From Massilia soli (GTDB lineage: Bacteria > Pseudomonadota > Gammaproteobacteria > Burkholderiales > Burkholderiaceae_D), in the NCBI RefSeq assembly GCF_016809835.1, contig NZ_JAFBIL020000001.1:558001-622000 (forward strand): DNA of 64,000 bases. Reading direction: 5' to 3'. The notes under the pieces were generated by a model. The model ran no database searches and was not told the DNA's origin. It was given only the letters and a program-made list of their open reading frames with translations. The position numbers were made by a program, and so were the translations under genes. Positions within the stretch are counted from its first letter, which is position 1; each line of letters opens with the position of its first letter. Below are positions 45,855-57,206 of this stretch, piece after piece.

Positions 45855-46541
45855 CTAGGTCTCGAACAGGCGCAAGCCTTCGACATCGAGCACCCGGATG
45901 CCCCCGTAGTCGATCTGCACCAGGCCTTCCTTCTCCAGCAACTGCAGCGCCTGATTGGCGCGTTGCCGCGATGCGCCCGACAGGTAGCCAATCTCTTCCT
46001 GCGAAATTTGCACGACCTTGTCGACGCCGGGATAGAGGTGCGAATTGAACATCGACGCCAGGCAGCGCGCCACTCGCGTGTCGACGTTCAGCAGGCGATC
46101 GGTCTCGACCAGCCCGATGAACTGGCCAAGGCGCTCATTGAGCTGCATCAAAAGAAAGCGCGTGAACGGCAGGCTCGTTTCCAGCAGCCATTCAAAGGTC
46201 GCGCGCGGCATCTGCGCCACCCGGGTGTCGCGCAGGGCGATCACGTCGTACTTGCGGTGGTCGTCCTTCAGCAGCGAGCCCTCGCCAAACCAGCCGCCCG
46301 CGGGCACGCCGGTGAAGGTGACGTTCTTTCCTGCCGCAGAAAAATTGTTCATCTTCACCAGGCCATCGATGATGCCGGTCCAGCTTTCCATCGGCTCGCC
46401 CTTGCGGCAAACGAATCCACCCTTCGGCACGAACTGCTCGAAGGTGTCGGCCTCGACCCGCTGCATCTGTGAAGCGCTCAGGCAGCGCGCCCAGATAGTG
46501 GCCCGGAGATGTTGTGTCAGTGTTTGTGCTTGATTGTCCAT
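45855..46541 (-). CDS. Crp/Fnr family transcriptional regulator
   Basis: A 228-aa regulator from ATG 46541. N-terminal cyclic-nucleotide-like beta roll (about 20-120) without the FNR cysteine cluster, a dimer helix, and a C-terminal helix-turn-helix with QISQEEIGYLSGASRQRANQAL (helix Arg-rich). The effector is unknown. It diverges from the acyl-CoA ligase/Liv operon, with an 18-bp palindrome in the shared region, so it is the likely regulator of that operon. Confidence 0.88.
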   Translation of the reverse strand: MDNQAQTLTQHLRATIWARCLSASQMQRVEADTFEQFVPKGGFVCRKGEPMESWTGIIDGLVKMNNFSAAGKNVTFTGVPAGGWFGEGSLLKDDHRKYDVIALRDTRVAQMPRATFEWLLETSLPFTRFLLMQLNERLGQFIGLVETDRLLNVDTRVARCLASMFNSHLYPGVDKVVQISQEEIGYLSGASRQRANQALQLLEKEGLVQIDYGGIRVLDVEGLRLFET

Positions 46542-46571
46542 TGTGCGTCGCAGCATCGAAAGTCGGCGCAA

Positions 46572-46589
46572 TTGTCATCCAAATGACAA
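46572..46589. promoter_or_regulatory. Perfect palindrome TTGTCAT-N4-ATGACAA, Crp/Fnr-type operator candidate
   Basis: TTGTCATCCAAATGACAA: two 7-bp arms around CCAA. Dyad length, spacing and TGTCA/TGACA cores match the Crp/Fnr binding-site plan. It lies 30 nt upstream of the regulator start and about 103 nt upstream of the acyl-CoA ligase start, so it could repress one and activate the other. Confidence 0.65.
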
Positions 46590-46692
46590 CGTTGAATTGA
46601 AACGCAAGCTAATATCATCACACAAAAGCGCATCCCGCCCTGCAAAACCTTTTGCGCAGCGGGAATGACGTGACAACAGAAGGAGACACGCG

Positions 46693-48648
46693 GTGACTAC
46701 ACCCGACGGATTGCAATTGCAGACGTTTCCGCGGCGGTTGCTGGCCCACGGCCAGGTCCGCCCGGCGCGGCCGGCGTATCGCGAAAAATACCTGGGCATC
46801 TGGCAGACCTACAGCTGGGCCGAGGTCAACGCCGAAGTGCGCGCGATGGCGTGCGGGCTGGCGTCGATCGGCTTCAAGCGCGGCATGAACCTGGCCATCA
46901 TCGGCGACAACCGGCCGCGCCTGTACTGGGCGATGCTGGCCGCGCAAAGCATCGGCGGCGTGCCCGTGCCGTTGTACCAGGATGCGCCGGCGGCCGACAT
47001 GGCCTATGTCCTGAACGACGCAGAAGTGGCGTTCGCGATGGTCGAGGACCAGGAACAGGTCGACAAGCTGCTCGAACTGAAGTCGCTATGCCCGCTGGTG
47101 GCGCACATCGCCTACGAGGACGAGCGCGGCATGCGGCACTATTCGCAGCCAGGCTTGCTGTCGATGGCCGAACTGGCCAGGCTCGGACGCGCCTACGACC
47201 AGGCCAACCCGGGCTTCTACGAAGCGCAGGTGGAACAGGGCAGCGGCAGCGATCCGGCCATCATCCTGTACACCTCCGGCACCACCGGCAAGCCGAAAGG
47301 CGTGGTGCAGTCGCATACCTCGCTGATCGCGGCAGGCACCGGCGGCGTCGGTTTCGACAAGCTGACCGACCGCGAAGACATCCTGTCGTACCTGCCGATG
47401 GCTTGGGTGGGCGACTGCCTGTTCTCGCTGGCGCAGGCGATGGTGGCCGGCTTCACGGTCAACTGCCCCGAGTCGGGCGACACCGTGCTGACCGACCTGC
47501 GCGAGATCGGGCCGACCTACTACTTCGCCCCGCCGCGCGTGTTCGAGAACATGCTCACCACGGTGATGATCCGCATGGAAGACGCGGGCGCCATCAAGCG
47601 CCGCATGTTCCACCACTTTATGGACGTCGCCCGGCGCTGCGGCGCCGATATCCTCGATGGCAAGCCGGTGGCGGCCGGCGACCGGCTCCAGTACGCGCTC
47701 GGCAAGCTGCTGGTGTACGGCCCGCTGCGCAATGTGCTTGGCATGTCGCGCATCCGCGTCGCCTACACGGCGGGTGCGGCGATCGGCCCCGACCTGTTCC
47801 GTTTCTACCGCTCGATCGGCGTCAACCTCAAGCAGCTGTACGGCTCGACCGAAACCTGCGCCTACGTGTGCCTGCAGCCGGACGGGAACATCAAGTTCGA
47901 CAGCGTCGGCGTGGCCGCGCCCGGCGTCGAAGTCAAACTGGCCGACAACGGCGAAGTGCTGGTGCGCTCGGCCGCAACCATGGACGGCTATTTCAAGCGC
48001 CCGGACGCCACCGCCGAAGTGATCGACGCGAACGGCTACTTCCATACCGGCGACGCCGGTATCTTCGACGCCGACGGCCACCTGAAGATCATCGACCGCG
48101 CCGCCGACGTGGGCAAGATGAACGGCGGTGCGATCTTCGCGCCGAACTACATCGAGAACAAGCTCAAGTTCTTCCCGTATATCAAAGAGGCGGTCGCCTT
48201 CGGCAATGCGCGCGAGCGCGTCTGCGCCTTTATCAACATCGACATGGAAGCGGTCGGCAACTGGGCCGAACGGCGCAACATCTCGTATTCGGGCTATACC
48301 GACCTGGCCGCGCATCCGCAGGCGTATGAACTGATCCGCGACTGCGTCGAGAAGGTCAACGCCGACCTGGCCAGCGAAGCGATGATGGGCGATACCCAGA
48401 TCCAGCGCTTCCTGATCCTGCACAAGGAGCTTGACCCGGACGACGACGAGCTGACCCGCACCCGCAAGGTGCGCCGCAAGTTCATCGCCGAGAAGTACGC
48501 GGTGCTGATCGATGCGCTCTACAGCGACAAGGCCAGCCAGTACATCAGTACCCAGGTCAAGTTCGAGGACGGCCGCACCGGCGTCGTCAGCGCCGACCTG
48601 CGCATCGCCGACGCGAAAACCTTCCCTTCGATGGAGCGCGCAGCGTGA
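46693..48648 (+). CDS. AMP-dependent acyl-CoA synthetase / ligase (long-chain-type)
   Basis: A 651-aa adenylate-forming enzyme that activates a carboxylate to its CoA thioester. Motifs: A3 phosphate loop YTSGTTGKPKGVV, A5 YGSTETC, GYFHTGDAG, IIDRAADVGKMNGG before the hinge, and a C-terminal lysine region. The layout matches long-chain fatty-acid ligases but the acid is unknown. Starts GTG at 46693 after AGAAGGAGAC. Its stop overlaps the livG GTG. First gene of the importer operon. Confidence 0.88.
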   Translation: MTTPDGLQLQTFPRRLLAHGQVRPARPAYREKYLGIWQTYSWAEVNAEVRAMACGLASIGFKRGMNLAIIGDNRPRLYWAMLAAQSIGGVPVPLYQDAPAADMAYVLNDAEVAFAMVEDQEQVDKLLELKSLCPLVAHIAYEDERGMRHYSQPGLLSMAELARLGRAYDQANPGFYEAQVEQGSGSDPAIILYTSGTTGKPKGVVQSHTSLIAAGTGGVGFDKLTDREDILSYLPMAWVGDCLFSLAQAMVAGFTVNCPESGDTVLTDLREIGPTYYFAPPRVFENMLTTVMIRMEDAGAIKRRMFHHFMDVARRCGADILDGKPVAAGDRLQYALGKLLVYGPLRNVLGMSRIRVAYTAGAAIGPDLFRFYRSIGVNLKQLYGSTETCAYVCLQPDGNIKFDSVGVAAPGVEVKLADNGEVLVRSAATMDGYFKRPDATAEVIDANGYFHTGDAGIFDADGHLKIIDRAADVGKMNGGAIFAPNYIENKLKFFPYIKEAVAFGNARERVCAFINIDMEAVGNWAERRNISYSGYTDLAAHPQAYELIRDCVEKVNADLASEAMMGDTQIQRFLILHKELDPDDDELTRTRKVRRKFIAEKYAVLIDALYSDKASQYISTQVKFEDGRTGVVSADLRIADAKTFPSMERAA

Positions 48649-49478
48649 CGGAGCCAGATACCATGCAAATGAATGAACCCAGCGCCATGAGCGGGGCGGC
48701 GCGCAAGATCGGCCCGGTCATCCTCGACCTGAAGAACATCTCGCTGGCATTCGGCGGCGTCAAGGCGCTGACCGACATCTCGTTCGACGTGAAGCAGCAC
48801 GAGATCCGGGCGATTATCGGGCCCAACGGCGCCGGCAAAAGCTCGATGCTCAACGTGATCAACGGCGTGTACCGCCCGCAGCAGGGCGAGATCGTGCTGC
48901 GCGGCGCGCACCGCAAGAACATGGACTGCTACGCGGCCGCAAAAGCCGGCGTGGCCCGCACCTTCCAGAACATCGCGCTGTTCAAGGGCATGACGGTCCT
49001 CGACAACATCATGACCGGCCGTAACCTGAAGATGAAGTCGAACTTCCTGATGCAGGCGCTGTACCTGGGCCCGGCGCGGCGCGAAGAAATCGCCCACCGC
49101 GAAAAGGTCGAGGAGATCATCGACTTCCTCGAGATCCAGGCGATCCGCAAGACGCCGGTCGGACGCCTGCCTTACGGCCTGCAGAAGCGGGTGGAGCTGG
49201 GACGGGCGCTGGCCGCCGAGCCGGAGATCTTGCTGCTCGACGAGCCGATGGCCGGCATGAACGTCGAGGAAAAGCAGGACATGTGCCGCTTCATCCTCGA
49301 TGTGAACGACCAGTTCGGAACGACCATCGTGCTGATCGAGCATGACATGGGCGTGGTGATGGATATCTCCGACCGCGTGGTGGTGCTCGACTACGGCAAG
49401 AAGATCGGCGACGGCACCCCGGATGAAGTGCGCAATAACCAGAATGTGATCAATGCGTATCTCGGCGTCGCCCATTAA
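48645..49478 (+). CDS. livG: Branched-chain-amino-acid-type ABC transporter ATP-binding protein (LivG)
   Basis: A 277-aa ATPase: Walker A GPNGAGKSSM, signature LPYGLQKRVELG, Walker B LLLDEPMAG, switch His EHDMGVVM. LivG type, with the longer C-terminus. Starts GTG at 48645, in a GTGA overlap with the ligase stop; ATG at 48663 is an alternative. Works with LivF and LivHM. A palindromic repeat separates it from livH. Confidence 0.92.
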   Translation: MTEPDTMQMNEPSAMSGAARKIGPVILDLKNISLAFGGVKALTDISFDVKQHEIRAIIGPNGAGKSSMLNVINGVYRPQQGEIVLRGAHRKNMDCYAAAKAGVARTFQNIALFKGMTVLDNIMTGRNLKMKSNFLMQALYLGPARREEIAHREKVEEIIDFLEIQAIRKTPVGRLPYGLQKRVELGRALAAEPEILLLDEPMAGMNVEEKQDMCRFILDVNDQFGTTIVLIEHDMGVVMDISDRVVVLDYGKKIGDGTPDEVRNNQNVINAYLGVAH

Positions 49479-49479
49479 C

Positions 49480-49557
49480 GTCGTTCCCGTGAATACGAGA
49501 ACCCAAACGCCGCGCCAGGATTTGTTCAGCATGGGTTCCCGCGTGCGCGGGAACGAC
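49480..49557. repeat. Dispersed palindromic repeat, two-hairpin copy C
   Basis: GTCGTTCCCGTGAATACGAGAA on the left (degenerate arm) and GGTTCCCGCGTGCGCGGGAACGAC on the right, written here in parts, 78 bp. It sits inside the operon, between livG and livH, where it may cause partial termination or protect the upstream mRNA. Confidence 0.8.
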
Positions 49558-49580
49558 GGGCTGCGATTTAAGGAATCGAC

Positions 49581-50477
49581 ATGAGCTTTTTTATTGAAGT
49601 GCTTCTCGGCGGCCTGCTCTCCGGTGTGATGTATGCGCTGGTGGCCATTGGCTTTGTCCTGATCTACAAGGCGTCCGGCGTCTTCAACTTCGCCCAGGGC
49701 GCGATGGTGTTCTTCGCCGCCCTCACCTGCGTCGGCATCATCGACAAGTTCGGCGTGTCGCTGTGGGTAGCGGTACCGGCCACGATGGTCGTCATGATCC
49801 TGCTTGGCATCGCCATCGAGCGCGTCGTGCTGCGCCCTCTGGTCAACCAGCCCGAGATCACGCTGTTCATGGCCACCATCGGCCTGGCGTTCTTCATCGA
49901 AGGCCTGGCGCAGCTGATCTGGGGATCGCAGGTGCGCAAGCTCGACCTGCCGATCGACGATATCCCGAACACCTACCTGATGGATAACTACAACATCCTG
50001 GTGTCCAACTTCGATATGACCGCCGCCGCCATCTGCGGCGTGCTGGTCACCGCGCTGGCCCTGCTGTTCTCCAAGACCAAGGTGGGCCGCGCGCTGCGCG
50101 CGGTGGCAGACGATCACCAGGCGGCGCTCGCGGTCGGCATTCCGCTGCAGCGCATCTGGGCGGTATTGTGGGGTGTGGCCGGCCTGGTCGCACTGGTGGC
50201 CGGCATGCTGTGGGGCGCCCGCAACGGCGTGCAGTTCGCGCTGACGTTCATCGCGCTCAAGGCCTTGCCGGTGCTGATTCTCGGCGGCTTTACCTCGGTA
50301 CCGGGCGCCATCGTCGGCGGCCTGATCATCGGCGCGTCGGAAAAACTGGCCGAGGTCTACCTCGGTCCCTATGTCGGCGGCGGCATCGAAGGCTGGTTCC
50401 CGTACGTGCTCGCGCTGTTGTTCCTGCTGGTTCGCCCTGAAGGGCTGTTCGGCGAAAAAATCATCAGGAGGATTTGA
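49581..50477 (+). CDS. livH: Branched-chain-type ABC transporter permease LivH
   Basis: A 298-aa inner-membrane permease with about eight helices. Starts with a glycine-rich LLGGLLSGVMYALVAIGF, has the conserved FNFAQGAMV loop, and ends LFGEKIIRRI after a GLIIGASEKL region that binds the ATPases. ATG at 49581, with AAGGAATCG upstream. One nt separates it from the livM ATG. Confidence 0.92.
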   Translation: MSFFIEVLLGGLLSGVMYALVAIGFVLIYKASGVFNFAQGAMVFFAALTCVGIIDKFGVSLWVAVPATMVVMILLGIAIERVVLRPLVNQPEITLFMATIGLAFFIEGLAQLIWGSQVRKLDLPIDDIPNTYLMDNYNILVSNFDMTAAAICGVLVTALALLFSKTKVGRALRAVADDHQAALAVGIPLQRIWAVLWGVAGLVALVAGMLWGARNGVQFALTFIALKALPVLILGGFTSVPGAIVGGLIIGASEKLAEVYLGPYVGGGIEGWFPYVLALLFLLVRPEGLFGEKIIRRI

Positions 50478-50478
50478 C

Positions 50479-51537
50479 ATGTTTTACCGTGAAGCCGGAC
50501 AGTTTAAAACCACCTACCAGTCCGACGGACAGGTATTCCCGATCCGCCAGGACCGCGTCGCCATGCTTGCGCTGGTCGGCGTCGCGCTGCTGGTGGTGCC
50601 GATGATCGCCTCGCCCTACGTGCTGTCGGCGATCCTGATTCCGTTCCTGATTTTCTCGCTGGCGGCGCTGGGCCTCAACATCCTGACCGGCTATTGCGGC
50701 CAGCTGTCGCTCGGTACCGCTGCCTTCATGGCGGTGGGCGCCTTCGCCTCGTGGAACTTCATCTTCCGCATTCCCGGCATTCCGATGCTGCTGGCGTTCG
50801 TGCTGGGCGGCCTGTGCGCGGCCATGGTGGGCATCGCCTTCGGCCTGCCGTCGTTGCGCATTCGCGGTTTCTACCTGGCGGCGTCGACGCTGGCCACCCA
50901 GTTCTTCGTGGTCTGGTGCCTGACCAAGATCCCTTACCTGACCGGCAACAGCTCGTCCGGCGTGATCACCGCGCAGCAGATCACGATCTTCGGCTACGCC
51001 TTCGACACCCCGGCCGCCAAGTACATGCTGGTGCTGGCGATCGTGGCGCTGATGGCGCTGCTGGCCAAGAACATGGTGCGCTCGAACGTCGGGCGATCCT
51101 GGATGGCGGTGCGCGACATGGACGTGGCGGCGGAGGTGATCGGATTCCGTCCGATGCGCACCAAGCTGCTGGCGTTCGCGGTCAGCTCGTTCTACTGCGG
51201 CGTGGCCGGCGCCCTGTATGCCTACGCCTACCTGGGCACCGTGGAGCCGGAGGCGTACAACCTCGACCTGTCGTTCCGGATCCTGTTCATGATCATCATC
51301 GGCGGCGTCGGCTCGATCCTTGGATCGTTCCTTGGCGCCGCTTTTATTGTGCTGCTGCCGGTCTTCCTCAACATCGTGGCGCACGGGATGTCCCTGCCCA
51401 CGTCGGTGGCATCGAACCTGGAGTTGATGGTGTTTGGCGCGTTGATCATATTTTTCCTGATCGTGGAGCCGCATGGCCTCGCGCGCTTGTGGCAAGTGGG
51501 TAAAGAAAAATTGCGCCTGTGGCCATTCCCGCACTAA
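50479..51537 (+). CDS. livM: Branched-chain-type ABC transporter permease LivM
   Basis: A 352-aa second permease with about ten helices. The N-terminal 40 residues are polar (unusually long and soluble for LivM); the core has LNILTGYCGQLSLGTAAFMA and GGVGSILGSFLGA, the conserved transporter motifs. It starts 1 nt after livH, with AGGAGGATTTG as a strong ribosome-binding site. Acts with LivH. Confidence 0.92.
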   Translation: MFYREAGQFKTTYQSDGQVFPIRQDRVAMLALVGVALLVVPMIASPYVLSAILIPFLIFSLAALGLNILTGYCGQLSLGTAAFMAVGAFASWNFIFRIPGIPMLLAFVLGGLCAAMVGIAFGLPSLRIRGFYLAASTLATQFFVVWCLTKIPYLTGNSSSGVITAQQITIFGYAFDTPAAKYMLVLAIVALMALLAKNMVRSNVGRSWMAVRDMDVAAEVIGFRPMRTKLLAFAVSSFYCGVAGALYAYAYLGTVEPEAYNLDLSFRILFMIIIGGVGSILGSFLGAAFIVLLPVFLNIVAHGMSLPTSVASNLELMVFGALIIFFLIVEPHGLARLWQVGKEKLRLWPFPH

Positions 51538-51599
51538 CCCGGCCGCGCGGACGCAATACAAAACGGTAGCTATTGACGGACCTTTGGAGACGACAAAAA

Positions 51600-52901
51600 A
51601 TGAAACTGACCACCAAGCTTTTGCTGTGCGCATCGCTCGCAGGCGCATTCAATCAAGTAAGCGCAGCCGACCAGTTTGTCGCGTTGCCTTCGTATCGCGT
51701 CGGCCCGTACGCGGCCGGCGGCTCCGGCTTCTACGGCGGCGCGATCGACTATTTCAACCTGGTCAACGCCACCGGCGGCATTAACGGCGTCAAGATCAAG
51801 TGGCAGGAGTGCGAAACCGAATACAACCCATCGCGCGGCGTCGAATGCTACGAGCGACTGAAAACCCAGGAAGGCGGCGCCACCCTGGTCGAGCCGCTGT
51901 CGACCGGTATTGCTTACGGCATCCTTGACCGCGTCGCACAGGACAAGATCCCGATGACCACCCTCGGCTACGGCCGCTCTGACGCTGCCAACGGCAAGGT
52001 GTTCCCATACGTGTTCCCGCTTATCACCAGCTACTGGAACCAGGCCGCGGCGATGGTCAAGTACCTGGCCGACAAAAATGGCGGCTACGCCAAGCTGAAG
52101 GGCAAGAAGATCGTCCACCTGTACCACGACTCGGCGTTCGGCAAAGAGCCGCTGCCGGTGCTCGAAGCCCAGGCCAAGCAGTACGGCTTCGAATTGATCA
52201 AGATCGCCGTCGCGCCGCCGGGCAGCGAGCAGCAGTCGCAGTGGCTGCAGATCCGCCAGGCCAAGCCTGATCACGTGATCCTGTGGGGCTGGGGCGTGAT
52301 GAATTCGGTCGCGATCAAGACCGCGCAGCGCAACGGCTTCCCGCGCGAGAAGATCCTTGGCGTGTGGTGGGCAGGTTCGGAAGAAGACACCATCCCGTCG
52401 GGCGACGCGGCCAAGGGCTACACCTCGATGACCTTCAACACGCCGGGTAACTACCCGGTCATCGACCAGATCCGCAAGACCGTCTACGGCGCCGGCAACG
52501 GCAACCTGGCCGACCAGAAGCGCATCGGCAGCGTGTACCACATGCGCGGCATGACGATGGGCATCCTGTGGGCCGAAGGTATCCGCAAGGCGCAGGAAAA
52601 GTACGGCAAGGGCAAGGTCATGACGGGCGAGCAAGTTCGCTGGGGCCTGGAAAACCTGAACATCGACGAAGCACGCCAGAAGGCGCTGGGCGCGTTCGGC
52701 ATGTTCCCGACCGTGAAGACCAGCTGCGACGACCACGAAGGTTCGGGCGCCGTGAAGGTCCAGCAGTGGGACGGCAGCAAGTGGAAAGCCATCACGCCGA
52801 ACTGGGTGGTGGGCGACAAGGCGCTGACCCGCAAACTGGTTGAGGAATCCTCGGCGGCGTATGCCAAAGAGAAGAACATCACGCCAGCCTGCCTGCAGTA
52901 A
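51600..52901 (+). CDS. ABC transporter substrate-binding protein (LivK/AmiC-like)
   Basis: A 433-aa periplasmic binding protein: signal peptide of about 22 residues (MKLTTKLLLCASLAGAFNQ, then VSA), then a type I periplasmic-binding fold with GINGVKIKWQECET and NPSRGVECYERLK. Compared with classical LivK (370 aa) it is about 60 residues longer, so the ligand may not be leucine. The ATG at 51600 is used because it creates the signal peptide. Confidence 0.9.
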   Translation: MKLTTKLLLCASLAGAFNQVSAADQFVALPSYRVGPYAAGGSGFYGGAIDYFNLVNATGGINGVKIKWQECETEYNPSRGVECYERLKTQEGGATLVEPLSTGIAYGILDRVAQDKIPMTTLGYGRSDAANGKVFPYVFPLITSYWNQAAAMVKYLADKNGGYAKLKGKKIVHLYHDSAFGKEPLPVLEAQAKQYGFELIKIAVAPPGSEQQSQWLQIRQAKPDHVILWGWGVMNSVAIKTAQRNGFPREKILGVWWAGSEEDTIPSGDAAKGYTSMTFNTPGNYPVIDQIRKTVYGAGNGNLADQKRIGSVYHMRGMTMGILWAEGIRKAQEKYGKGKVMTGEQVRWGLENLNIDEARQKALGAFGMFPTVKTSCDDHEGSGAVKVQQWDGSKWKAITPNWVVGDKALTRKLVEESSAAYAKEKNITPACLQ

Positions 52902-52915
52902 TCGGCAAGACCGCT

Positions 52916-52940
52916 CCCCGGCCGCCTGTCGCGGCCGGGG
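52916..52940 (+). terminator. 10-bp perfect hairpin after the binding-protein gene
   Basis: CCCCGGCCGC, loop CTGTC, GCGGCCGGGG, 14 nt after the stop and before livF. There is only a short T run (CGTTTGA). It likely allows partial termination or 3' protection, giving more binding protein than ATPase, as in other importer operons. Confidence 0.65.
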
Positions 52941-52961
52941 CGTTTGACGAACAAGTGAAAA

Positions 52962-53789
52962 ATGCCAATGACGAATGACGCAGCCAGCCAGCCCTACCTG
53001 TCGGTGAATAACATCGAAGTCATTTACGACCATGTGATCCTGGTCCTGAAAGGCGTGTCGCTGCAGGTACCGAAGGGGAAGATCGTGGCCCTGCTTGGCG
53101 CCAACGGCGCCGGCAAATCGACCACGCTGAAAACCATCTCGACCCTTCTGCGCGGCGAACGGGGCGACGTGACCAAAGGCGAAGTGCGGTTCCAGGGCGA
53201 GCGGGTCGACCAGCTCACGCCCAACGAACTGGTCAAGCGCGGCCTGTCGCAGGTGATGGAGGGCCGTCATTGCTTCGGCCACCTGACGATCGAAGAAAAC
53301 CTGATGACCGGCGCTTACACGCGCTCGATATCGCGCGCGGAGCTGAAAGATTCGCTCGACGCCGTGTACCAGTACTTCCCGCGCCTGAAGGAGCGCCGCA
53401 CCAGCCAGGCCGGCTACACCTCGGGCGGCGAGCAGCAGATGTGCGCGATCGGCCGCGCGCTGATGGCCAAGCCGTCGATGATCCTGCTCGACGAACCGTC
53501 GATGGGGATCGCGCCGCAGATCGTCGAAGAGATCTTCGACATCGTGAAAGACCTGAACCACAAGGAAGGCGTGTCGTTCCTGCTGGCCGAGCAGAACACG
53601 ACGGTCGCATTGCGCTATGCCGACTTCGGCTACATCCTCGAAAACGGCCGCGTGGTCATGGAAGGCGAAGCGAAGGAGCTGGCCAACAACGAGGACGTCA
53701 AGGAGTTCTACCTTGGCGTGTCGGGCGCCGGCCGCAAGAGCTTCCGCGACATGAAGTTCTATCGCCGCCGCAAGCGCTGGCTGGCATGA
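52962..53789 (+). CDS. livF: Branched-chain-type ABC transporter ATP-binding protein LivF
   Basis: A 275-aa second ATPase: Walker A GANGAGKSTTLK, signature YTSGGEQQMCAIGRA, Walker B ILLDEPSMGIAPQ, and an H-loop replaced in part by AEQNTTVAL as usual for LivF. A C-terminal extension of about 25 residues (RRRKRWLA) goes beyond the family norm. Its stop overlaps the ATG of the 30-codon ORF (ATGA). Confidence 0.92.
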   Translation: MPMTNDAASQPYLSVNNIEVIYDHVILVLKGVSLQVPKGKIVALLGANGAGKSTTLKTISTLLRGERGDVTKGEVRFQGERVDQLTPNELVKRGLSQVMEGRHCFGHLTIEENLMTGAYTRSISRAELKDSLDAVYQYFPRLKERRTSQAGYTSGGEQQMCAIGRALMAKPSMILLDEPSMGIAPQIVEEIFDIVKDLNHKEGVSFLLAEQNTTVALRYADFGYILENGRVVMEGEAKELANNEDVKEFYLGVSGAGRKSFRDMKFYRRRKRWLA

Positions 53790-53878
53790 CGGACACGAAA
53801 GACAGCATCATGGATTTTGAGCGTGCCAAGGCACCGTACAAGAAGCTGCAGCGCGAAATTGGCGAACATGGACTTTGA
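53786..53878 (+). pseudogene. 30-codon ORF, apparent internally deleted YjbR copy
   Basis: Starts in an ATGA overlap with livF and encodes MTDTKDSIMDFERAKAPY then KKLQREIGEHGL. From codon 9 it starts MDFE, like the next gene, and ends KKLQREIGE, like the C-terminus of the same gene. The 3' part is nearly identical in DNA to 54187-54219 (AGAAGCTGCAGCGCGAAAT versus AGAAGCTTCAGCGCGAAAT). The best reading is a tandem duplicate that lost its middle. It might still act as a leader peptide giving coupled translation. Confidence 0.5.
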
Positions 53879-54221
53879 AGCATTGAAGGAGGTATGCCTT
53901 GGCTTCCCTGGCGCTGCCCAGGACCTGAAGTGGGGCGAAGTCACGGTGTTTTCGGTTGGCGGCAAGATGTTCGCCGCTACCAATGCCGACCTTCCGGCAA
54001 GCCGCATCAGCTTCAAGGTGGACGACGAGCGTTTCCTTGAACTGACCGACCGCCCCGGCATCATCCCCGCGCCATACATGGCGCGCTTGAAATGGGTGTA
54101 CACAGACGACGCCAGGGCGTTAAGCGACAGCGAAGCGGCCTTGCTGCTGAGGCGCTCGTACGAACTGGCATTCGCGAAGCTGACCAAGAAGCTTCAGCGC
54201 GAAATAGGAGAATTGGCATGA
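53868..54221 (+). CDS. MmcQ/YjbR family protein
   Basis: A 117-aa DNA-binding-like protein of the YjbR fold. N-terminal MDFEALKEVCLGFPGAAQDLKWG (given in parts), SFKVDDERF and PYMARLKWVY in the middle, and YELAFAKLTKKLQREIGE at the C-terminus. Family function is unsettled. ATG at 53868 overlaps the short ORF; its TGA shares the ATGA with the next ATG at 54218, so translation is coupled through the operon. Confidence 0.85.
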   Translation: MDFEALKEVCLGFPGAAQDLKWGEVTVFSVGGKMFAATNADLPASRISFKVDDERFLELTDRPGIIPAPYMARLKWVYTDDARALSDSEAALLLRRSYELAFAKLTKKLQREIGELA

Positions 54222-55477
54222 CTTTCGATACCCTGGATGCGCTTGAAACGCGCAACCCCGCCGATCGCGAGAGCGATCTGATGGCGCGGCTGCCGCAGCT
54301 GGTGGCGTTGGCAAAACGCGCGCCGGGATGGCAGCGCATCCTTGACGGTTTCGATCCCGCGACGATTGACAGCCGCGCCGCGCTGGCGACCTTGCCGATC
54401 ACCCGCAAGTCCGACCTCAAGACACTGCAGAAGGAACCGGCGCCCTTCGGTGGCCTGAATGCCACGCCGCTGTCAGCGTTGGCGCGGGTATTTGTCTCCC
54501 CTGGGCCGATCTACGACCCGGAAGGACGCGGCCAGGACTACTGGCGCTTTGCGCGGCCGCTGTATGCGGGCGGGGTGCGCGACGGCGGCCTGCTGCAGAA
54601 CTGCTTCTCCTACCACTTCACGCCGGCGGCCTTCATGGTCGAAGGCGGCGCCTTCCGGATCGGCTGCACGGTCATTCCAGCCGGTTCCGGGCAAACCGAG
54701 ATGCAGGTGCTGGCGATGGCCGACCTGAAGCCCGACACCTATGTCGGCACGCCCTCGTTCTTGCGCATCATTATCGAGAAGGCGCGCGAAATGGGCGCCG
54801 ACATCAGCAGCGTGCGCAATGCGGTGATGGGCGCCGAAGCGCTGCCGCAATCGCTGCGCGCCTGGTTCCAGGAAAACGGCGTGCCGAATGTGATCCAGAC
54901 CTACGCGACGGCCGACATCGGCAGCATCGCCTACGAAACCGTCACCGATGGCGTGATCAATCCAGGCATGGTGCTCGACGAAGACCTGATCGTCGAAATC
55001 GTCCGGCCCGGCAGTGGCGAGCCGGTGGCGCCGGGCGACATCGGCGAAGTGGTGGTCACCTCGTTCAACCCCGACTATCCCTTGATCCGCTTTGCGACCG
55101 GCGACATGTCGGCGCTGCTGATCGACGCCGCACCGTCGAGATGCGGGCGCACCAACAGCCGCATCAAGGGCTGGATGGGACGCGCCGACCAGACCACCAA
55201 GGTGCGCGCGATGTTCGTGCATCCATCGCAGGTCGAAAACATCGTGCGCCGCCATCCGCAGGTGCTCAAGGCGAGGCTGGTGGTCTCGGGCCGGATGGCC
55301 AATGACGCTATGACGCTGCATTGCGAAGTCGCGGGCGAAGCGCGGCCGGAGCTCGCGGCGGCGATCGTCGATTCGATTCGCGAGGTGACCAAGCTGCGCG
55401 GCGAGGTTGAATTCGCGGCGGCCGGTTCGCTGCCGGCGGACGGCAAACTGATCGAGGATGCGCGCGACTATACGTAG
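54218..55477 (+). CDS. PaaK-like AMP-dependent ligase with altered phosphate loop
   Basis: A 419-aa protein of the phenylacetate-CoA ligase group. Adenylation features are YATADIGSIAYE (A5-like) and IRFATGDMSALL (A7-like), then GRADQTTKVRAMFVHPSQVE as the C-terminal hinge. The usual SSGTTGKPT loop is absent; at its place is VSPGPIYDPEGRG. The acid is unknown. It is the last gene of the operon, coupled by an ATGA overlap. Role with the first ligase: either two substrates or successive steps. Confidence 0.8.
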   Translation: MTFDTLDALETRNPADRESDLMARLPQLVALAKRAPGWQRILDGFDPATIDSRAALATLPITRKSDLKTLQKEPAPFGGLNATPLSALARVFVSPGPIYDPEGRGQDYWRFARPLYAGGVRDGGLLQNCFSYHFTPAAFMVEGGAFRIGCTVIPAGSGQTEMQVLAMADLKPDTYVGTPSFLRIIIEKAREMGADISSVRNAVMGAEALPQSLRAWFQENGVPNVIQTYATADIGSIAYETVTDGVINPGMVLDEDLIVEIVRPGSGEPVAPGDIGEVVVTSFNPDYPLIRFATGDMSALLIDAAPSRCGRTNSRIKGWMGRADQTTKVRAMFVHPSQVENIVRRHPQVLKARLVVSGRMANDAMTLHCEVAGEARPELAAAIVDSIREVTKLRGEVEFAAAGSLPADGKLIEDARDYT

Positions 55478-56249: not shown

Positions 56250-57206
56250 TCAAGCAATCCCCAGCCGCCTTCTCGCCGCCTGGTACTCGTCCTGCAAACG
56301 CTCCACCATCTGCGCCACGGTCGGCACATCATCCATCAGGCCGACGCCCTGCCCCGCGCCCCAGATATCGCGCCACGCCTTCGCGCTGCCCGAACCGAAG
56401 CTCATCTTGCTCTTGTCCGACTCCGGCAACGCGTCCGGATCGAGTCCCGCGTTGACGATCGATTTCTTCAAGTAGTTCCCGTGCACGCCGGTAAACAGGT
56501 TCGTATAGACGATGTCCGCCGCGCTCGACTCCACAATCGCGTTGCGGTACTCGTCGCTGACATTCGACTCCCTGGTCGCCAGCCAACGCGAGCCAATGTA
56601 CGCCAGGTCGGCGCCCATCGCCTGCGCCGCAAGAATCGCGTCGCCGGTCGCGATCGCGCCTGACAGCGCCAGCGGGCCGTCGAAGAACTTGCGCACTTCG
56701 CCGACCAGTGCAAACGGCGACAGCGCGCCAGCGTGTCCGCCGGCGCCAGCAGCCACCAGGATCAGGCCATCGACGCCGGCCTCCAGCGCCTTCTGCGCGT
56801 GGCGAATCGATACGACGTCATGCAGCACGATGCCGCCGTAGCCGTGCACCGCATCCATCATTTCCTTCGGCGGCGCGCGCAGCGACGAAATAATGATCGG
56901 CACCTTGTGACGCACGCAGACCTCGACATCGTGCTCCAGCCGGTCATTGGACTGGTGGACGATCTGGTTGACCGCGATCGGCCCGACCTTTTTTCCCGGG
57001 TTGGCTTGCTGGAACTCCGCCAGCTCTTTCTGCAGGTCGGTCAGCCAGGTGTCGAGCAGCTCGGCGGGCCGGGCGTTCAGCGCCGGGAAGGCGCCGACGA
57101 TGCCCGCCTTGCATTGCGCGGCAACCAGCTGCGGTCCGCTGGCGATAAACATCGGGGAGGCGATGACGGGAAGGCTGAGGTTTTGAAGCGCGGCGGGTAA
57201 TGCCAT
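56250..57206 (-). CDS. Nitronate monooxygenase
   Basis: FMN-dependent enzyme that oxidises alkyl nitronates such as propionate-3-nitronate. The 318-aa TIM barrel has PVIASPMFIASGPQLVAA at the start, a phosphate-binding GGHAGALSPFAL and GAIATGDAILAAQAMGADLAYIGSRW described in parts. The family also includes 2-nitropropane dioxygenase-like proteins. Its upstream region carries a TATAAT and an inverted repeat. Confidence 0.9.
   Translation of the reverse strand: MALPAALQNLSLPVIASPMFIASGPQLVAAQCKAGIVGAFPALNARPAELLDTWLTDLQKELAEFQQANPGKKVGPIAVNQIVHQSNDRLEHDVEVCVRHKVPIIISSLRAPPKEMMDAVHGYGGIVLHDVVSIRHAQKALEAGVDGLILVAAGAGGHAGALSPFALVGEVRKFFDGPLALSGAIATGDAILAAQAMGADLAYIGSRWLATRESNVSDEYRNAIVESSAADIVYTNLFTGVHGNYLKKSIVNAGLDPDALPESDKSKMSFGSGSAKAWRDIWGAGQGVGLMDDVPTVAQMVERLQDEYQAARRRLGIA

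Follow-up and report, generated by a model that had tools for sequence, protein, structure and literature searches.

A conserved Liv-type import operon with an acyl-CoA ligase and a PaaK-like protein in Massilia soli, possibly serving short branched carboxylates

A 64,000-nucleotide stretch of the Massilia soli genome (contig NZ_JAFBIL020000001.1, positions 558,001 to 622,000; hereafter the window) carries, at its positions 45,855 to 55,477, a run of genes in which a Liv-type importer is encoded together with an AMP-forming acyl-coenzyme A (CoA) ligase, here called AcsL, and a PaaK-like protein. We consider it well supported that these genes form a conserved operon for import and activation, probably under local regulation. 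The best single reading of its function, which we advance tentatively and a little short of probable, is that it imports a short branched carboxylate and activates it to a CoA ester. The likeliest substrates would be isobutyrate, isovalerate, pivalate or 2-hydroxyisobutyrate, and not a leucine-like compound.

The genes acsL, livG, livH, livM, the gene for the periplasmic binding protein (BP), livF, yjbR and the paaK-like gene lie on one strand, with a Crp/Fnr gene divergent from them. Place, orientation and Pfam support agree for every gene named, as an earlier reading of the sequence alone (the sequence-only reading) had described them:

45855..46571, minus strand: Crp/Fnr-type regulator, likely start ATG 46541; PF00027 and PF13545 above cut-off
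46572..46589, no strand: predicted operator TTGTCATCCAAATGACAA, a palindrome kept in crp-acsL intergenic regions
46693..48648, plus strand: acsL, long-chain-acyl-CoA-synthetase-like AMP-forming ligase; PF00501, canonical motifs
48645..49478, plus strand: livG ATPase; PF00005 and PF12399 (ABC_tran and BCA_ABC_TP_C)
49581..50477, plus strand: livH permease; PF02653 (BPD_transp_2)
50479..51537, plus strand: livM permease; PF02653; listed open reading frame (ORF) start 50371 over-extended
51600..52901, plus strand: BP; PF13458 (Peripla_BP_6); ORF from 51573
52962..53789, plus strand: livF ATPase; PF00005
53868..54221, plus strand: YjbR/MmcQ-like gene; PF04237; ORF from 53817
54218..55477, plus strand: PaaK-like protein; PF00501; SPGP replaces the P-loop of the ANL family

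The starts of livM (50479), the BP (51600), yjbR (53868) and crp (46541) are probable ones, chosen by sequence reading, and the listed start of the paaK-like gene (54092) is likewise over-extended, ATG 54218 giving a protein of 419 residues where relatives mostly have 406–429. Start-stop overlaps between neighbouring genes do exist, although the 'several' of the sequence-only reading was slightly generous: there are two true ones, of 4 nucleotides each (acsL/livG and yjbR/paaK-like), and livH and livM are separated by a gap of 1 nucleotide.

We compared the best 80 of at least 590 loci with relatives of the BP, obtained by a profile scan and thus biased to close kin. The seven core genes acsL-livG-livH-livM-BP-livF-paaK-like were found in the same order and on the same strand in 54/80 loci, two of them imperfect (acsL and livG are fragmented in L117, and the paaK-like gene lies approximately 4 kb further on in L074). 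Eleven loci lack this arrangement, and 15 lie on contigs too short to judge, defined as less than 6.5 kb upstream or less than 4 kb downstream of the BP gene; one of the latter, L116, shows the BP gene alone despite 5.7 kb of downstream sequence. In a second set, of 20 further regions of the class, all seven genes were present in 11; L048 and L058 have no paaK-like gene and only a distant ligase, L049 has neither, L044 is cut by a contig end, L040 has the paaK-like gene directly beside the BP gene without livF, and four regions hold the BP gene alone. Since the seven-gene order recurs in both sets, the unit is conserved beyond chance, and a check for dispersal of its genes in relatives, which the sequence-only reading had named as an outcome that would speak against it, did not refute it.

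The seven-gene set is kept as a unit across Oxalobacteraceae, Burkholderiaceae, Zoogloeaceae, Azonexaceae and Chromobacteriaceae, as well as in two alphaproteobacteria, Roseovarius and Aminobacter; among plasmid records, all seven are present in Xanthobacter, Roseovarius and Aminobacter, and the unit reaches further to Azospirillum and Methylibium. The order is rearranged in Xanthobacter, where the paaK-like gene comes first, and in Azospirillum, where livG precedes acsL; the BP of the Azospirillum plasmid cluster is annotated as such, yet gives no match to the window BP at E 1e-12. Such variation would suit the view that importer and ligase genes owe their co-transcription to history, without a single common substrate, as would the existence of related importers in sulfur-type loci that have no full ligases; the cohesion of the seven genes across the five families named above, as well as in Roseovarius and Aminobacter, argues against it, and we regard this explanation as very unlikely. 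No title or abstract opening found in the literature describes this gene cluster; in the text available, PMC6515984 names paa genes and a ligase without mention of this cluster, and PMC2847961 and PMC2667541 hold nothing on it. A further candidate, c6, was rejected as a set of genes because it runs antisense to genes of the cluster at the loci examined.

By tblastn, yjbR was found in 9/80 loci, all of them Oxalobacteraceae, and, judged by this distribution, it is a lineage-specific insertion. It is flanked by a 28-nucleotide imperfect direct repeat (89%; window 53839-53866 and 54185-54212), and a short reading frame upstream of it bears the start and the end of YjbR; repeat and frame together have the look of a remnant left when a tandem copy collapsed.

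In terms of architecture, the transporter corresponds to the LivJ/LivK-HMGF importers of E. coli: a BP, two BPD_transp_2 permeases and two ATPases are encoded together (Pfam), the folds are shared, and LivG and LivF resemble the corresponding models. The window subunits, in contrast, score below the curated NCBIfam cut-offs (LivG 252/362, LivF 214/441, LivH 99/379, LivM 123/366 bits), the BP is longer than LivK, as had been noted from the sequence, and ligase genes are part of the operon. The BP matched no NCBIfam model. It was modelled with a predicted local distance difference test (pLDDT) value of 87.8, and its nearest solved structure is 4ru0, from the Pseudomonas fluorescens group (48% identity).

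Compared with LivJ and LivK, the BP has changed residues at several aligned positions. Trp265 aligns with a Glu of E. coli LivJ/LivK (by hhalign for LivJ, by MAFFT for both) which holds the amino group of the ligand, and this position is Trp in 68/70 rows of BPs encoded with acsL and paaK-like genes. Within this type, positions 111, 132, 133, 154, 265 and 268, some of which align with ligand-contact residues of LivJ, are near-fixed (68–70 of 70 rows, with Tyr in 62/70 at position 133), and the same six positions differ in 10 or 11 of 11 sister rows from sulfur-type loci; for example, position 111 is Thr in 70/70 versus Val in 10/11, and position 265 is Trp in 68/70 versus Ile or Val in 11/11. 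The two type labels are not single clades in the BP tree (20 and 3 changes). These fixed positions suggest one common ligand class within the acsL/paaK-like type. In addition, Cys80, Cys92, Cys385 and Cys440 are present in 70/70 rows of the type, which suggests two disulfides.

AcsL is, by its motifs, a predicted acyl-CoA ligase: it carries the ANL motifs YTSGTTGKPKG, YGxTE and TGD and the RTRKVRR region, and the same motifs occur in the commonest variants listed of a 68-row alignment. It scored above no curated cut-off among the 25 of 96 models listed.

The second ligase-like protein is of a different kind. In an alignment of the window protein with 62 ORFs scoring above 250 bits, the motif SPGP stands in place of the P-loop SSGTTG in 63/63 rows; the Asp of the TGD motif and the C-terminal DGK motif are kept, and AD is found where PaaK has SE. 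The protein resembles PaaK, which is among its nearest solved families, in fold and in the C-terminal region; it differs in its P-loop and in scoring 137.3 bits against a cut-off of 646.3 for the PaaK NCBIfam equivalog. Its model (pLDDT 83.4) points to a PaaK-type fold, the best structural matches being of PaaK type with template-modelling (TM) scores of approximately 0.7 and a large root-mean-square deviation. Since SPGP replaces the P-loop, the protein appears to have lost adenylation and may not activate anything. Thus, of the two adenylate-forming ligases claimed in the sequence-only reading, AcsL stands, with its canonical motifs, and the PaaK-like protein is not supported as one; similarly, of the proposal that a carboxylate is imported and activated to a CoA ester, the coupling of the importer to a ligase with canonical motifs is supported and a ligase role of the PaaK-like protein is not.

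This bears on the possibility that the imported and activated compound is an aromatic acid, which would be in line with the PaaK-type fold and with the aromatic-acid BPs 4q6w and 4evq among the fold matches (19% identity). The same genome, however, holds a separate paa-type cluster (L159) with a canonical-looking PaaK that has SSGTTG and with its own Liv importer, as judged by similarity and not by family models. We rejected a phenylacetate-ligase role for the paaK-like gene on account of this second cluster and of the missing P-loop, and the aromatic (phenylacetate) role, to which the paaK-like gene and Liv-type importers of aromatic acids had first pointed, is therefore unlikely, to the point that we give an aromatic substrate very little credence. 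The L159 cluster also holds thioesterase, hydratase and thiolase genes, again by similarity.

The case for a short branched acid draws on B12-dependent acyl-CoA mutases encoded beside the cluster in some relatives. IcmF-type and 2-hydroxyisobutyryl-CoA-mutase-like enzymes act on C4-C5 acyl-CoAs. We examined the neighbourhoods of 13 cluster loci (those with a paaK-like gene in the set of 20 regions) and of 59 further cluster loci (21/80 having been dropped because their PaaK-like match did not exceed 300 bits), and compared them to 40 other Liv loci of the same genomes, hand-picked from the better-scoring non-cluster matches of 13 genomes and with unequal flanks. A B12-dependent acyl-CoA mutase neighbour was found at 5/13 and 7/59 cluster loci versus 0/40 controls, in which the sole IcmF match had 30% identity; the dropped loci include L097 and L105, each with a mutase match at its edge. 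A 3-hydroxybutyryl-CoA dehydrogenase neighbour was found at 3/13 and 13/59 cluster loci versus 0/40 controls.

In L090, the IcmF beside the cluster is above its NCBIfam cut-off (1960.8 versus 1500), and in L160, which carries a diverged form, icmF-hbd-enoyl-CoA hydratase adjoins livG-acsL-livHM-BP-livF-paaK-like. A discrete mutase, a MeaB-type GTPase and the cluster share one strand in Xanthobacter Py2, Roseovarius THAF8 and L167; Xanthobacter Py2 reportedly has a pivalyl-CoA mutase, for which a literature search gave no confirmation. In Methylibium PM1, the cluster lies approximately 18 kb from GntR, B12-binding, AMP-binding, MeaB and mutase genes, which match the 2-hydroxyisobutyrate operon hcl-hcmAB-meaH in the text available of PMC7176365. 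That operon, described for Methylibium PM1 and Aquincola, resembles the scheme considered here in that acyl activation precedes a B12-dependent mutase, and differs in that its HCL is a separate PaaK-type ligase, scoring 77 bits to the window PaaK-like protein; the word 'transporter' is absent from the main text of that paper. PMC5017805 offers a precedent: an isobutyryl-CoA mutase cluster is encoded by a syntroph for which the isomerisation of isobutyrate to butyrate is reported.

Among 369 genomes of the class, a PaaK-like ortholog (a match above 160 bits, a line set by us; two of the genomes, G208 and G214, have partial genes) was found in 22, an IcmF above cut-off in 52, and both in 16 (Fisher p = 1e-10). 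Within the 53 genomes of at least 3.5 Mb that have any mutase-family match, the single-stretch IcmF clade gave 13/18 versus 6/35 (p = 0.0001). Six co-occurring pairs lie at most 15 kb apart, a distance chosen post hoc, versus 0.14 expected under uniform placement.

Several observations weigh against a short branched acid that feeds such mutases. The neighbourhood queries came partly from cluster loci and so favour them, and a mutase is missing within approximately 9 kb in 8/13 and 52/59 cluster loci. Co-occurrence stands at 16/22 versus 36/122 (p = 2e-4) within the 144 genomes that have any mutase-family match, and at 13/18 versus 15/35 (p = 0.04) within the 53 of those of at least 3.5 Mb. In the window genome itself, IcmF lies approximately 128 kb from the paaK-like gene and is thus not adjacent to the cluster, and no operator match with at most one mismatch occurs near IcmF among the matches listed. 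In Methylibium PM1, no acsL match was found beside the cluster. The Trp265 argument against amino acids is a weak one, because 3lkb, a structure with bound valine, also has no Glu at this position. Finally, AcsL resembles long-chain ligases.

The last of these points is shared by the view that the compound taken up and activated is a medium- or long-chain fatty acid, perhaps a methyl-branched one. The best models for AcsL are long-chain ligases (FadD11, at 310 bits against a cut-off of 950, and PRK06187), the third-nearest solved structure to the BP, 4n03, bears the title of a fatty acid ABC transporter substrate-binding protein, and 3-hydroxybutyryl-CoA dehydrogenase neighbours suit any beta-oxidation. 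The identity of 4n03 to the BP is, however, just 18%, and the chain length handled by the linked mutases speaks for smaller acids; we consider a fatty acid substrate, the second-best reading, somewhat unlikely.

A variant leucine/valine importer, with neighbours that serve leucine/valine catabolism, would account for the Liv-type subunits and for the bound valine of 3lkb, which is the second-nearest, and distant, solved structure to the BP. Leucine/valine catabolic genes do stand beside the cluster in Azospirillum TSH58, L114, L118 and L121, where they are striking, yet we rejected them as evidence, as they are no commoner than in the controls (0/13 and 7/59 cluster loci versus 4/40). The replacement of the LivJ/LivK Glu by Trp also argues against this view, as does the acyl-CoA ligase, which would have no obvious role in it, and we consider it clearly unlikely.

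The regulator has cNMP_binding and HTH_Crp_2 domains, and a divergent crp gene was found in 38/80 loci. We analysed 40 crp-acsL intergenic regions, namely that of the window and those of loci with one divergent crp match and a gap below 900 bases. The palindrome TGTC-N8-GACA occurs in 36/40 regions (mean 0.16 and maximum 2 in shuffled sequences), being absent from L066, L094, L108 and L110, and the longer form TTGTC-N8-GACAA occurs in 21/40 (shuffled mean 0.02). In the window, approximately 30 bases separate the latter from the likely start of crp, upstream of which it lies, and approximately 100 bases separate it from acsL. The 4.99-Mb genome contains no other exact match to TTGTCN8GACAA; this uniqueness was rejected as evidence, as a reversed control pattern likewise occurs once. 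Chance alone would give the window about one operator match with at most one mismatch. Since neither genome uniqueness nor one-mismatch matches are informative, we place the weight on conservation, by which the palindrome is operator-like and a predicted binding site for the divergent Crp/Fnr protein. Local control of the operon by this protein, as proposed from the sequence, is thus probable.

If a short branched carboxylate is indeed the substrate, the BP would capture the monocarboxylic acid, LivHMGF would bring it into the cell, and AcsL would adenylate it and form the CoA ester. The PaaK-like protein would act in the same route, probably without the full function of an ATP-using ligase. 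A B12-dependent mutase could then rearrange the CoA ester, with oxidation proceeding via 3-hydroxybutyryl-CoA, and a single operator would let the Crp/Fnr protein control the operon and perhaps its own gene. A broader proposal, which we find doubtful, is that this is a widespread system of short-branched-carboxylate import and activation feeding B12-dependent mutases, in which an SPGP-bearing, PaaK-derived protein without ATP-dependent adenylation has taken on a new role, such as thioester transfer from the AcsL acyl-adenylate or acyl-CoA sensing. Annotation usually assigns Liv-type importers to amino acid transport, and many proteobacterial annotations would change were this unit to take up short branched acids; in that case, uptake and activation would also be added to the route from isobutyrate, pivalate or 2-hydroxyisobutyrate to IcmF-type mutases. 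A ligase-like protein whose P-loop loss is conserved, yet which the operon retains, poses a clean biochemical puzzle.

Sister Liv-type importers, with the order livGHM-BP-livF and BPs 52–58% identical to that of the window, lie beside SfnG, SfnB and MsuE genes; eight such loci (L127, L128, L130, L134, L135, L138, L139 and L141) are set amid sfnG, sfnB, msuE, ssuD and dmoA. A second BP copy, in L137, is below this range of identity, and no full AcsL or PaaK-like match was found in the 11 rows of the group. Short AMP-binding proteins are the products of the four genes tested upstream of livG in sulfur-type or related loci.

Other genes recur near the cluster. A nitronate monooxygenase-like gene (PF03060) is found at window positions 56250-57206, and 21 loci (Oxalobacteraceae and Burkholderiaceae) have a match to it, at 70–89% identity, close to the cluster, versus 0/40 control loci; 2-nitropropane-dioxygenase-like genes adjoin the cluster in Xanthobacter Py2. 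A hybrid histidine kinase, of NahK/ErcS type as tested on the L085 protein, and a gene for a 220-residue protein recur near the cluster in L085, L092, L109 and L111, all of which are loci of Rhodocyclales type.

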